Shown one piece after another: positions 38,320 to 41,903 of a stretch of DNA of 64,000 nucleotides. Positions within the stretch are counted from its first letter, which is position 1. Every line of letters starts with the position of its first letter. The notes under the pieces were generated by a model. The model saw only the letters and a program-made list of their open reading frames with translations. It had not been told where the DNA came from and made no database searches. Source of the DNA: Owenweeksia sp. (GTDB lineage Bacteria > Bacteroidota > Bacteroidia > Flavobacteriales > Schleiferiaceae); assembly GCA_028285465.1 (NCBI GenBank), contig JANQPD010000052.1, positions 1 through 64,000 of the forward strand. Reading direction: 5' to 3'. The position numbers and the translations under genes are program-made.

Positions 38320-38826
38320 ATGTACAAGATTACAACGGCAGATAAAACCTTTGAAGTAGAATTAGAAAAAGGAAACGATAACCGGGGCAAAGTTAATGGC
38401 CTCCCCTTTTCGCTGGATACGCTGCGTGAAGGAGAACGCTTCCACATTCTCCGCAACGGCATAAGCTACAGCGTGGAGGTAATACGTGCTCAATATGAAG
38501 AAAAGCACTTTGAACTCATGGTAAACGGCCATCGCTATACCTATTCGGCACAGGACCGCTTTGACCTGTTGCTAAAAAAGCTGGGTATGGAAAACCTGGC
38601 TTCAGCTGCCGTAAACGATTTAAAAGCGCCCATGCCCGGTATGGTGCTTTCCATACATGTAAAAACTGGCCAGGACGTAAAAAAAGGCGACCCTTTACTG
38701 GTGCTGGAAGCCATGAAAATGGAAAACGTACTGAAAGCGGTGGCAGACGGCACCATAAAAAGCATTCAGGCAGAAACCGGAAAAGCCGTTGAAAAAAACC
38801 AGGTGCTTGTTGAGTTCGAAGCTTAG
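38320..38826 (+). CDS. Biotin carboxyl carrier protein (acyl-CoA carboxylase subunit)
   Basis: A 168-residue carrier that holds biotin for an acyl-CoA carboxylase. The C-terminal biotinyl domain has the AMKM motif (VLEAMKMENVLKA) preceded by KAPMPGMVLSIHVKTGQ; the N-terminal 80 residues match the cap domain of propionyl- or methylcrotonyl-type carriers in Bacteroidota. The carboxylase subunits are not adjacent. It ends with a 4-bp overlap with the convergent lipoprotein gene. Confidence 0.88.
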   Translation: MYKITTADKTFEVELEKGNDNRGKVNGLPFSLDTLREGERFHILRNGISYSVEVIRAQYEEKHFELMVNGHRYTYSAQDRFDLLLKKLGMENLASAAVNDLKAPMPGMVLSIHVKTGQDVKKGDPLLVLEAMKMENVLKAVADGTIKSIQAETGKAVEKNQVLVEFEA

Positions 38827-39947
38827 TTGGGGTAGGCTACGGCAAAGTGGCCGAACAGCCTATTGAGCTGTATGGTGCTTCCATCATTAGCCAACAATGT
38901 AGCATTGGCAGAAAAGGTGAAGCGTTTTGTTGGCCAGCCGGTTGCATTCCTTTTATATTCTGCCGTACTGTGTATTTCAAACTGTCCGCCAAGCCGGTCA
39001 TGCAAGCTGGTAAAGCGCTTGCCGTTTTCATCCGTATAAATAAGCTCTACTGTATGCAGTTGCTCCGGATTTTGCGTGGTTAGCTGCTGTATGTTATAAA
39101 TAAACTCGGCAGAGCAGTTTTGAGCTAACCCAGGCACAGGCTTTACTGCCCGGCTTACCTTTTTCCGGCAACCATCCGCAAAGGTCATTTCTGCCCTTAA
39201 GGTTTGTTCCTCTCCATAGCTCCCCAGCAAAAGGCCCGATAAAGGAATTTCTACTTGTTCGTCATTCAAATACCAATCTACCTGAACAGGGGTATACGTT
39301 TCGCGGCTTACTACCGTGGGCATCACGCGATTATCGGTTAGCCAGGTAAGGTTAAAGGTAGCATCACAATCCAATGTGGGGTGCAGGTAATGCGTTATTT
39401 CACTTGAGCAATCTGTATACTCACAGCGAAGAGAAATGGGTAGTTCTTCGGTAAACCCACGGATGGAAAAACTCGCTGCGTTCCCCAGGAATATTCCTTC
39501 AGGAAGTTTCCACTGGTATGAAGTAGCCAGGTTGCTGGTGCTAAATAAGCTTACCAGGTATTCTCCCGGGATGGCAGATTGCTGCGTTGTACTGCTCAAA
39601 GCGTAGGATCGCTCATTTACTTCATCCGAAACATTCAAAGCACTAAAATCGGAAATGCCTTGTATCCCCGTCCGCAACCAAATGGACAGGCTTGGACCGG
39701 GGGTTCCGTCAGCAGGGCCTAATTTACCCCTCAAAGTAAGTACGCTATCGGTATCCAGCACAAAATCCGTGGTGAGGGCGTAGTTCTGCTCACCAGCTGT
39801 AAAGCCTATCGTATCCCCGTCCAATAAACCACTTACATAAAATGTAGGAGCATCGTTATACACGGAATTCTCCATGCCATCATCTTTGCTACATGCAAAG
39901 GCTGCAGCAACAAACGTTATGAGTACTATTCTTTTTAATTGCTTCAT
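38823..39947 (-). CDS. Putative lipoprotein of the ECF sigma operon
   Basis: A 374-residue protein with a lipobox (VAAAFACSKDD), so probably outer-membrane anchored. The rest is beta-rich with several cysteines (LRCEYTDCSSEI, TLDCDATFNL), suggesting Ig-like domains with disulfides. No named domain recognised. It is the third gene of the sigma factor/barrel operon, 12 bp after the barrel gene, so it is probably controlled by that system. Confidence 0.75.
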   Translation of the reverse strand: MKQLKRIVLITFVAAAFACSKDDGMENSVYNDAPTFYVSGLLDGDTIGFTAGEQNYALTTDFVLDTDSVLTLRGKLGPADGTPGPSLSIWLRTGIQGISDFSALNVSDEVNERSYALSSTTQQSAIPGEYLVSLFSTSNLATSYQWKLPEGIFLGNAASFSIRGFTEELPISLRCEYTDCSSEITHYLHPTLDCDATFNLTWLTDNRVMPTVVSRETYTPVQVDWYLNDEQVEIPLSGLLLGSYGEEQTLRAEMTFADGCRKKVSRAVKPVPGLAQNCSAEFIYNIQQLTTQNPEQLHTVELIYTDENGKRFTSLHDRLGGQFEIHSTAEYKRNATGWPTKRFTFSANATLLANDGSTIQLNRLFGHFAVAYPN

Positions 39948-39959
39948 TTTCTTCTTCTG

Positions 39960-41150
39960 CTAAAACGCATATTGCAAAAACATACGCACGTCCGTAAGCG
40001 CCATATGGCGTTTATCTGTGGTGCTGATATCACTAAGTGAGCCGCTGATCCGGGTGCCCAGGTTTACGCTCGGAGAAAGCCGGTAGCGATATTGTCCGAG
40101 CAAGCCAAAATCATAGCGGTTTAAAAATTCCGGCTCTGAAGGTTGTTGCACATTAAACTTGGAAACCAGTTCTTCAAATACATGCCTTTCTTTTACCGTT
40201 TGCACTTCATAGTCCAACAAAAGTGCTGCGTAGCCTCCTATTCCCCATTGATGGCGGGTACCCGTGTTATATTGCAACAATAAGGGCAATTCGAGGTGTG
40301 TAAGGCTGGCTACTTCACGAGTGTGAATCACGCGTTCTTCGTTGAAACTATAAAAGGTGCTGTCACGTTGTTGTGAGATACCGGGCGAATGACGTTGCAC
40401 AACGTTTACCTCTGCCGCCAATGACCACCCTCTACCGATGTTTCTTGCATAGCCCAGGCCTGCTGACCATCCATAACCCTGGTGGGCAGAAAAATTAACC
40501 GCGCTCCATGACCCGCCAACATTGAAGTAAAACCTTGAAGGAGAATGGTATTTCGTCTTAGGCCTTTTGTTAGGTGCACTTTCAAAAGGCATTGCCAGGT
40601 ACGGCGTTTCAGGCAGCTCGGCCAGGCCTAAATAACCCGGGGCTTCCCAATCGCTACTTTCTTCATGTAACGCGATTCTGCTTTGTACCGCATCGCTTTT
40701 CTCCTCCTGTGCTCCCAGGTGGGCAGCAAAGAGACGCTCATTCACTGTTTTCTTTAAGCTTGGCTTTCCCGTTTTCGCGACAGGTGCAGAAAGCTGCTGC
40801 TCAGAACTTACCACGGGGGCATTTACGGAAGACCGGGTGTTTCCTGCTTCAGGTACCCCCCCTGTTTCTTTTGCGGGTTGTTGATTTTCTTCAGCTTGAG
40901 GGCTTACCGCCACGGGAGGTAAGACAAACTCATGCTTCGGGTGTCCTGAAACCGAAGGTTGCATTAGCGCAAAAGAAGCCGCTACGGCACCCAGCAACAA
41001 TATAACTGCTGCACTACGCCAGTAAAAAGCATGTGCTTTGTTGCGGTTGTCCAACAGCTCTTCCATAGCCTTCCAGGCCTTTGGGTTGTAGTCGAACTGC
41101 CGGTTCCGCAGCTTTTTGGAAAATAATTTATCTAGCTCTTTATCACTCAT
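39960..41150 (-). CDS. Inner-membrane anti-sigma-like N-terminus fused to an outer-membrane barrel domain
   Basis: A 396-residue protein without a signal peptide. The first 40 residues are charged (DKELDKLFSKKLRNRQFDYNPKAWKAMEELLDN), as in anti-sigma N-termini, then one membrane helix (AAVILLLGAVAASFAL). A proline- and glutamine-rich linker of about 130 residues follows, then a C-terminal beta-barrel-like domain (RFYFNVGGSWSAVNF, GYGWSAGLGYARNIG) ending in ALTDVRMFLQYAF, as outer-membrane proteins do. It overlaps the sigma factor gene by 4 bp. A single chain may bridge both membranes and control the sigma factor directly; that is inference. Confidence 0.7.
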   Translation of the reverse strand: MSDKELDKLFSKKLRNRQFDYNPKAWKAMEELLDNRNKAHAFYWRSAAVILLLGAVAASFALMQPSVSGHPKHEFVLPPVAVSPQAEENQQPAKETGGVPEAGNTRSSVNAPVVSSEQQLSAPVAKTGKPSLKKTVNERLFAAHLGAQEEKSDAVQSRIALHEESSDWEAPGYLGLAELPETPYLAMPFESAPNKRPKTKYHSPSRFYFNVGGSWSAVNFSAHQGYGWSAGLGYARNIGRGWSLAAEVNVVQRHSPGISQQRDSTFYSFNEERVIHTREVASLTHLELPLLLQYNTGTRHQWGIGGYAALLLDYEVQTVKERHVFEELVSKFNVQQPSEPEFLNRYDFGLLGQYRYRLSPSVNLGTRISGSLSDISTTDKRHMALTDVRMFLQYAF

Positions 41151-41707
41151 AAGAACACCGCTACATTATTGAGCGCTTTTCTCAACAAGGCTTTCAGCTT
41201 GGTGCGTGCATTGCTTAAATGCCACTTGCTGGTGCCTTCGCTCATACTAAGTTTCTCTCCAATTTCTTTGTGGTTGTACCCATCGATGGCGTATAGGTTG
41301 AATACCTGTTTACTTACCGGGGGCAATTGCTCTATCATGATCTGCAGATATTCCGCATCAAATTGCTGGTCTGCTTCGTTGTAATCCATCACCGTTACCG
41401 GGGCATGGTCCATCGGGGACTCCACATAATCTACTTTGTGCTTTTTGTTTTTCCGGTACTCATCTATTACCGTATTGATGGTAATACGCCTTAACCATGC
41501 CTCAAACGGTACCTTTTCTTCATATTTATCCAGGTTAGTCAGCACTTTGTAAAAAGCTTTATTCAGTAAAAATTCCGCTTCTTCCTTATTTCGCTCATAA
41601 CGCAAACACACTGAAAGCATACAACCGTAACAAAGGCGGTAAAGCTCGTGCTGAGCCCGCCTTTTTTCTTTTTTACAGTCCTGCAAAAGTGATGCGCTAA
41701 TTTTCAT
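41147..41707 (-). CDS. ECF RNA polymerase sigma factor
   Basis: A 186-residue sigma factor. Region 2 is visible as LNKAFYKVLTNLDKYEEKVPFEAWLRRITINTVIDEYRK and region 4 as LPPVSKQVFNLYAIDGYNHKEIGEKLSMSEGTSKWHLSNARTKLK. It leads an operon with the inner-membrane/barrel protein and a lipoprotein. A terminator-like hairpin lies 7 bp before its start codon, which could control expression. Confidence 0.9.
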   Translation of the reverse strand: MKISASLLQDCKKEKRRAQHELYRLCYGCMLSVCLRYERNKEEAEFLLNKAFYKVLTNLDKYEEKVPFEAWLRRITINTVIDEYRKNKKHKVDYVESPMDHAPVTVMDYNEADQQFDAEYLQIMIEQLPPVSKQVFNLYAIDGYNHKEIGEKLSMSEGTSKWHLSNARTKLKALLRKALNNVAVFL

Positions 41708-41713
41708 ATTAAG

Positions 41714-41758
41714 CTAAAAAACCGGAAAGGCTAATGTACTCACATTCAACCTTTCCGG
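41714..41758 (-). terminator. Terminator-like hairpin just before the ECF sigma start codon
   Basis: CCGGAAAGG pairs with CCTTTCCGG; inside, AATGT pairs with ACATT around ACTC. On the minus strand it is followed by TTTTTT and then the sigma ATG 7 bp further. The position is odd: it would stop transcription just before the gene. Confidence 0.75.
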
Positions 41759-41794
41759 CACAACCGAACAATAAACCAAAAGATATTAGCGACA

Positions 41795-41853
41795 CAACCC
41801 TCGGTAAATCCCGTTGTATATTGCTGTATACGCAGGATATTTACCGAGGGTTG
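41795..41853. repeat. 15-bp perfect inverted repeat with a 29-nt spacer
   Basis: CAACCCTCGGTAAAT and its exact reverse complement, with GTATA/TATAC pairing inside the spacer. No T run follows on either strand. It could be an RNA structure in the sigma gene leader or a protein-binding site. Confidence 0.6.
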
Positions 41854-41903
41854 GGTGCTTAAATAAAAAAAGTATGTAAATTTTATATGTGGCCTCTTAG
41901 GGC

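Follow-up and report, generated by a model that had tools for sequence, protein, structure and literature searches.

A gene for a predicted Dma-type dual-membrane anti-sigma factor between an ECF sigma factor gene and a conserved lipoprotein gene in Owenweeksia sp.

Results

Organization of the Cassette and Anatomy of Dma

The window analyzed here is the first 64,000 nucleotides of an Owenweeksia sp. contig, and the genes, the promoter and the leader hairpin described for it lie on the minus strand. Three genes follow each other closely, encoding an ECF sigma factor of 186 aa (41147..41707), a protein of 396 aa with an ATG start (39960..41150) and a PKD/Ig-type lipoprotein of 374 aa (38823..39947), which starts 12 nt after the stop codon of the second gene. 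The second protein is of the type known in Bacteroides thetaiotaomicron as the "dual membrane-spanning anti-sigma" family (Pardue, 2024, as summarized in PMC13088901) and is called Dma below. The stop codon of the sigma gene and the start codon of Dma share the four nucleotides ATGA, which is the overlap pointed out in an earlier note made from the sequence. In the sigma protein, Sigma70_r2 and Sigma70_r4_2 (regions 2 and 4) were recognized above the Pfam cut-offs, and TIGR02937 (sigma70-ECF) was also matched above its cut-off; TIGR02985 and NF058625 gave matches, both of which were below their cut-offs.

The earlier note described the Dma gene as encoding one protein with a tail, a helix, a linker and a barrel, and this description was confirmed by an AlphaFold2 model built on a 54-sequence alignment and by a hydropathy scan (Kyte-Doolittle mean over 19 residues). 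Residues 1–38 (41037..41150) constitute a predicted cytoplasmic anti-sigma module of the form LF..KL....F.FN...W..ME..LD, in which 10 K/R and 7 D/E residues were counted, as expected of the mixed basic and acidic tail that had been noticed. The modeled helices extend over residues 3–15 and 23–62, the latter without interruption, and the only hydrophobic segment of the chain to exceed the threshold peaks at residue 46 (mean 2.01). Hydropathy and the modeled helix together place one predicted inner-membrane helix at residues 46–64 (40959..41015), and the claim that there is only one holds. Residues 63–205 (40536..40964), which are rich in P, A, E, and S, show no secondary structure and have pLDDT values mostly below 55, and are taken to form a disordered periplasmic tether. 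A linker is therefore present, as had been claimed, but its length is nearer 139–143 residues than the 130 initially given, judging from the hydropathy and the model.

The C-terminal part of the protein (residues 206–396; 39963..40535) is a predicted outer-membrane beta-barrel of the OmpA/OmpX type. Its strands were modeled from residue 206 to residue 395 with pLDDT values mostly above 90, and the last residue is Phe, in agreement with the barrel and terminal aromatic proposed; the outcome named beforehand as contradicting the proposal, namely a predicted structure devoid of a barrel, was not obtained. A Foldseek search of the PDB matched the barrel with OmpA, Ail, OmpX, and NspA, the best target being 1qjp with a TM-score of 0.65. 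OMP_b-brl_2 (residues 226–375, above the cut-off) was the only Pfam family recognized in Dma, where no FecR domain was matched. The alignment profile gave no convincing match among the PDB sequences, and the anti-sigma module did not match any curated anti-sigma family. A short hydrophobic "LPxL"-like motif immediately preceding the barrel, which seemed conserved on visual inspection, was found in 29 of 69 homologs, versus 20.7 expected by shuffling, and this candidate was discarded.

Pairing of the Sigma and Dma Genes

We compared 81 loci, namely the window and 80 others fetched for the purposes of comparison. In 72 of them, the sigma gene is followed by the gene of a protein with the Dma architecture (in three of the 72, the contig ends ahead of the barrel), while in the other nine the script found no open reading frame downstream of the sigma gene. 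The recurrence of the pair in so many loci argues against a chance association. The two genes are within 20 nt of each other in 61 of the 72 pairs, and the ATG of Dma overlaps the sigma stop codon in 19 of the 72 loci. The sigma orthologs are 56–73% identical, which is a far higher degree of conservation than that of Dma.

The genome to which the window belongs carries seven further sigma genes of the same type. Behind most of these lie genes for long proteins of the barrel type or of barrel length, while two precede genes encoding short membrane proteins with no barrel, in which the match to the N-terminal module is nevertheless kept. Since these sigma genes pair with proteins of either kind and the module is kept in the two short ones, it is the module rather than the barrel that accompanies the sigma gene. 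The two short proteins, which are encoded directly behind ECF sigma genes at L116:1921-2685 and L121:2209-2769 and carry a module of the same type, have the same cytoplasmic end as Dma and a different sensor end.

Predicted Promoter, Leader and Putative Regulon

In 52 of the 72 loci, the region ahead of the sigma gene contains a CCAAC-N17-CGT element with nearly constant spacing, and nearly all its copies read ACCCAACC-N16-CGT or a close variant thereof. The commonest exact dyad upstream of the sigma gene was present in 6 of 17 loci, versus at most 3 of 17 in the shuffles. In the window, the conserved motif corresponds to a predicted autoregulatory ECF promoter, CACCCAACCCTCGGTAAATATCCTGCGTATAC (41826..41857), composed of the -35-like element ACCCAACC, 16 nt and the -10-like element CGTATA. 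This pattern suggests that the sigma-Dma-lipoprotein cassette is probably autoregulated. A 14-bp inverted repeat (AACCCTCGGTAAAT / ATTTACCGAGGGTT; 41796-41852) was also observed around the -10 region of the predicted promoter.

Between this promoter and the start codon of the sigma gene, the leader contains a conserved hairpin and, after it, a T run (41714..41762). The z-score of the RNA fold is -3.9 in the window and ranges from -3.6 to -4.6 in four orthologs, and 8 of the 17 pairs are preserved through two-sided changes in five orthologs. No credible family was found for the leader in Rfam. An overlap of the hairpin with a basal promoter (TAAATTAG-like) is possible, as is a function as terminator or attenuator.

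The strict form of the motif, ACCCAACC-N16-CGT, was found at 63 sites in seven genomes, 41 of which are intergenic, that is, located outside the long open reading frames. A gene starts within 250 nt of 32 of the sites; seven of these genes are the sigma gene of the cassette, and 22 of the 25 others look exported, having a strongly hydrophobic N terminus of the export type. As a baseline, this crude criterion classifies about 34% of the genes of the context loci as exported. The reversed motif, used as a control in the same seven genomes, yielded 27 sites, three of which are intergenic and one has a gene nearby, which does not look exported. Within the genome carrying the window, site numbers show no enrichment of the motif (13 sites versus 11 for the reversed motif); the evidence for a regulon lies in the placement of the sites. 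The motif thus marks a putative regulon consisting mostly of exported envelope proteins. Two kinds of targets recur: a TonB-plug receptor (L124 and L162), and a small lipoprotein of about 165 aa with no Pfam match, which was encountered in three genomes (L129, L166, and L178) and, given this recurrence behind the motif, is a probable core member of the regulon.

The Lipoprotein Encoded by the Third Gene

The product of the third gene has a lipobox with its cysteine at position 19, followed by SKDD. Among the 72 loci found via the sigma factor, 62 carry a homolog of this lipoprotein directly behind Dma, the median distance between the two genes being 3 nt. An independent search in 40 related genomes found 20 near-full-length homologs (one truncated at the end of its contig), each of them immediately following a Dma gene, and the other matches in these genomes are generic PKD domains within different proteins. 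One ortholog, that of genome G007, has the sigma and Dma genes and no lipoprotein gene. Two copies of the cassette per genome were observed in G037 and G002, the pair in G037 lying within about 8 kb (contig C1 680444-688714).

The AlphaFold2 model of the lipoprotein has a mean pLDDT of 91.5, and comparing it with the PDB using Foldseek gave only weak and meaningless matches (fluorescent proteins, E > 0.001), so that the PKD assignment rests on sequence profiles: a PKD domain was recognized in 27 of 45 homologs, and the best profile matches among the PDB sequences were PKD chains. The sequence C-S-K-D-D in the window fits the C-X-K-(D/E)2 signal that follows the lipobox cysteine and specifies surface export in Capnocytophaga (PMC5080379). 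Among the 60 homologs having the cysteine, the exact signal was found in three and a lysine at +3 in 46, so that surface exposure is a lead rather than a result, and the exact signal is unsupported as a trait of the family.

The most likely role of the lipoprotein is that of a partner in the outer membrane or of a feedback component of the Dma sensor. It might also be a mere member of the regulon, an effector or a protein protecting the envelope, which shares the operon and takes no part in the sensing, and this reading has a substantial chance of being correct, although somewhat under one half. It is in line with the probable autoregulation of the cassette and with the published Dma2 operon, in which Das2 induces BT_1555-1557, genes that proved dispensable for vesiculation (PMC13088901); the fact that full-length copies occur only directly behind Dma in the relatives, which ties the gene more closely to the cassette than the other genes carrying the motif, speaks against it. 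A mirror-tree test did not favor an interaction between the lipoprotein and the barrel, the partial rho of 0.44 being identical for the barrel and for the N-terminal module. In a stronger version of the partner reading, no switch would work without the lipoprotein as its third component: docked on or in the Dma barrel at the outer membrane, the lipoprotein would, when displaced or lost, pull on or free the tether, giving a direct three-part switch from the outer membrane to transcription that is conserved across several orders of Bacteroidota. We propose this only tentatively, with a probability clearly below one half.

Conservation of the Module, the Tether and the Barrel

The identity with the Dma of the window in 16 orthologous rows is 46% for residues 1–38, 14% for the linker and 22% for the barrel. 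Residues L9, F10, and W26 are invariant in all 19 aligned homologs. The module occurs in tandem in five loci (L041 has four copies, L040, L042, and L044 have three each, and L050 has two), and the size of the repeating unit is thereby defined as about 38 residues. The four-copy homolog is located at L041:6558-8126.

The poorly conserved, disordered linker would be accessible to proteases, and Dma might routinely be cut in the periplasm, giving an ordinary outer-membrane barrel and an ordinary single-span anti-sigma factor with no continuous link between the two membranes. The existence of the barrel-less partners of similar sigma genes in the window's genome is also compatible with this idea. 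The length of the tether in 69 homologs, however, ranges from 131 to 362 residues (median 188) and is never below 131; this minimum fits a chain required to span the periplasm and would be superfluous if the chain were cut. In addition, the fusion of the module, the helix and the barrel in one chain has been kept across records from Flavobacteriales, Saprospirales, and Chitinophagales. We therefore regard routine cleavage as unlikely. That translation might really start downstream (at Met29, for example, which precedes the hydrophobic stretch at a distance resembling that of a signal peptide), the product being a plain outer-membrane barrel with a cleaved signal peptide, is highly improbable and was rejected, since residues 1–38 are the best conserved part of the protein and the upstream ATG is the one that overlaps the sigma stop codon; the absence of a signal peptide stated in the earlier note is thus upheld.

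Discussion

Relationships with Known Systems

Based on the architecture of Dma1 and Dma2 as described, every structural feature tested here fits, and the gene can be assigned to the published Dma class. Like the Dma1/Das1 and Dma2/Das2 pairs, as far as these are outlined in PMC13088901, it combines an N-terminal domain expected to bind the sigma factor, one helix, a disordered tether and a C-terminal barrel with an adjoining ECF sigma gene. In B. thetaiotaomicron, the effects of losing Dma1 or Dma2 are mediated by their respective sigma factors, Das1 and Das2 (PMC13088901). The Dma2 operon also consists of three genes (PMC13088901), but BT_1557 is annotated as DUF4943, whereas the third gene here encodes a PKD-type lipoprotein. 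The present case also differs from the B. thetaiotaomicron proteins in that the host belongs to the Flavobacteriales, a shared promoter motif is described, and tandem modules occur in the relatives.

A similar architecture has been reported in Phocaeicola vulgatus, where the pair M0N98_03760-61, which is related to EcfO/Reo of B. fragilis, consists of an ECF sigma factor and a predicted periplasm-spanning anti-sigma factor with a C-terminal outer-membrane barrel and controls the response to an envelope toxin (PMC9308784, 2022). This pair responds to envelope damage, and its regulon includes nigD genes and changes in the O-antigen (PMC9308784); the accessible part of its description makes no mention of a co-conserved PKD lipoprotein. 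Genetic work in both Bacteroides and Phocaeicola has thus shown proteins of this architecture to restrain the ECF sigma factor encoded beside them (PMC13088901, PMC9308784). The P. vulgatus ecfO-reo system is also dealt with in PMC13114119. As in the FecA-FecR-FecI system, an outer-membrane event would be relayed to an ECF sigma factor, but that relay involves a separate TonB-dependent receptor and the inner-membrane protein FecR, whereas the barrel and the anti-sigma module belong here to a single chain. Neither a FecR protein nor a TonB receptor was found among the open reading frames of the cassette operon using Pfam, which places it outside the FecR-type class. The architecture itself is therefore not new; the linkage with the lipoprotein, the shared promoter, the minimum length of the tether and the tandem modules are additions. 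No previous description of the lipoprotein, the promoter or the tandem modules was found in the accessible Dma-related literature, setting aside Pardue (2024) itself.

Proposed Mechanism

The earlier note suggested that the sigma factor may be directly controlled by an outer-membrane barrel protein, and the anatomy of Dma, the overlap between the genes, the conservation and the published genetics of the same architecture all support this suggestion, from which we infer both the binding of the sigma factor and the insertion into two membranes. In the scheme we favor, to which we attribute a probability of about 0.85, Dma is a dual-membrane anti-sigma factor: residues 1–38 would retain the ECF sigma factor on the cytoplasmic side of the inner membrane, the single helix would anchor the chain in that membrane, the disordered tether of about 143 residues would cross the periplasm, and the small OmpA-like barrel would be the sensing end in the outer membrane, with the lipoprotein as a presumed partner. 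The trigger might lie in the barrel, through its occupancy or misassembly, or in an altered state of the co-encoded lipoprotein, and the signal would pass along the tether by tension or proteolysis and free the sigma factor. Once freed, the latter would use ACCCAACC-N16-CGT promoters to transcribe the three genes of its own operon, along with genes encoding mostly exported envelope proteins. In the lineages with tandem modules, several sigma molecules might be held per anchored chain.

The cassette bears on two aspects of Dma, namely the way in which it senses the outer membrane and the insertion of a barrel whose chain remains anchored in the inner membrane. For the study of this family, it provides a strongly linked candidate partner, a minimum tether length and a putative sigma-binding unit of 38 residues of which natural multi-copy versions exist, as well as a promoter sequence that can be directly converted into a reporter. 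The existence of a conserved third gene and predictable target genes makes the signaling route testable. The Dma class is also placed by these data in records from Flavobacteriales, Saprospirales, and Chitinophagales, well beyond the gut Bacteroides of the earlier study.
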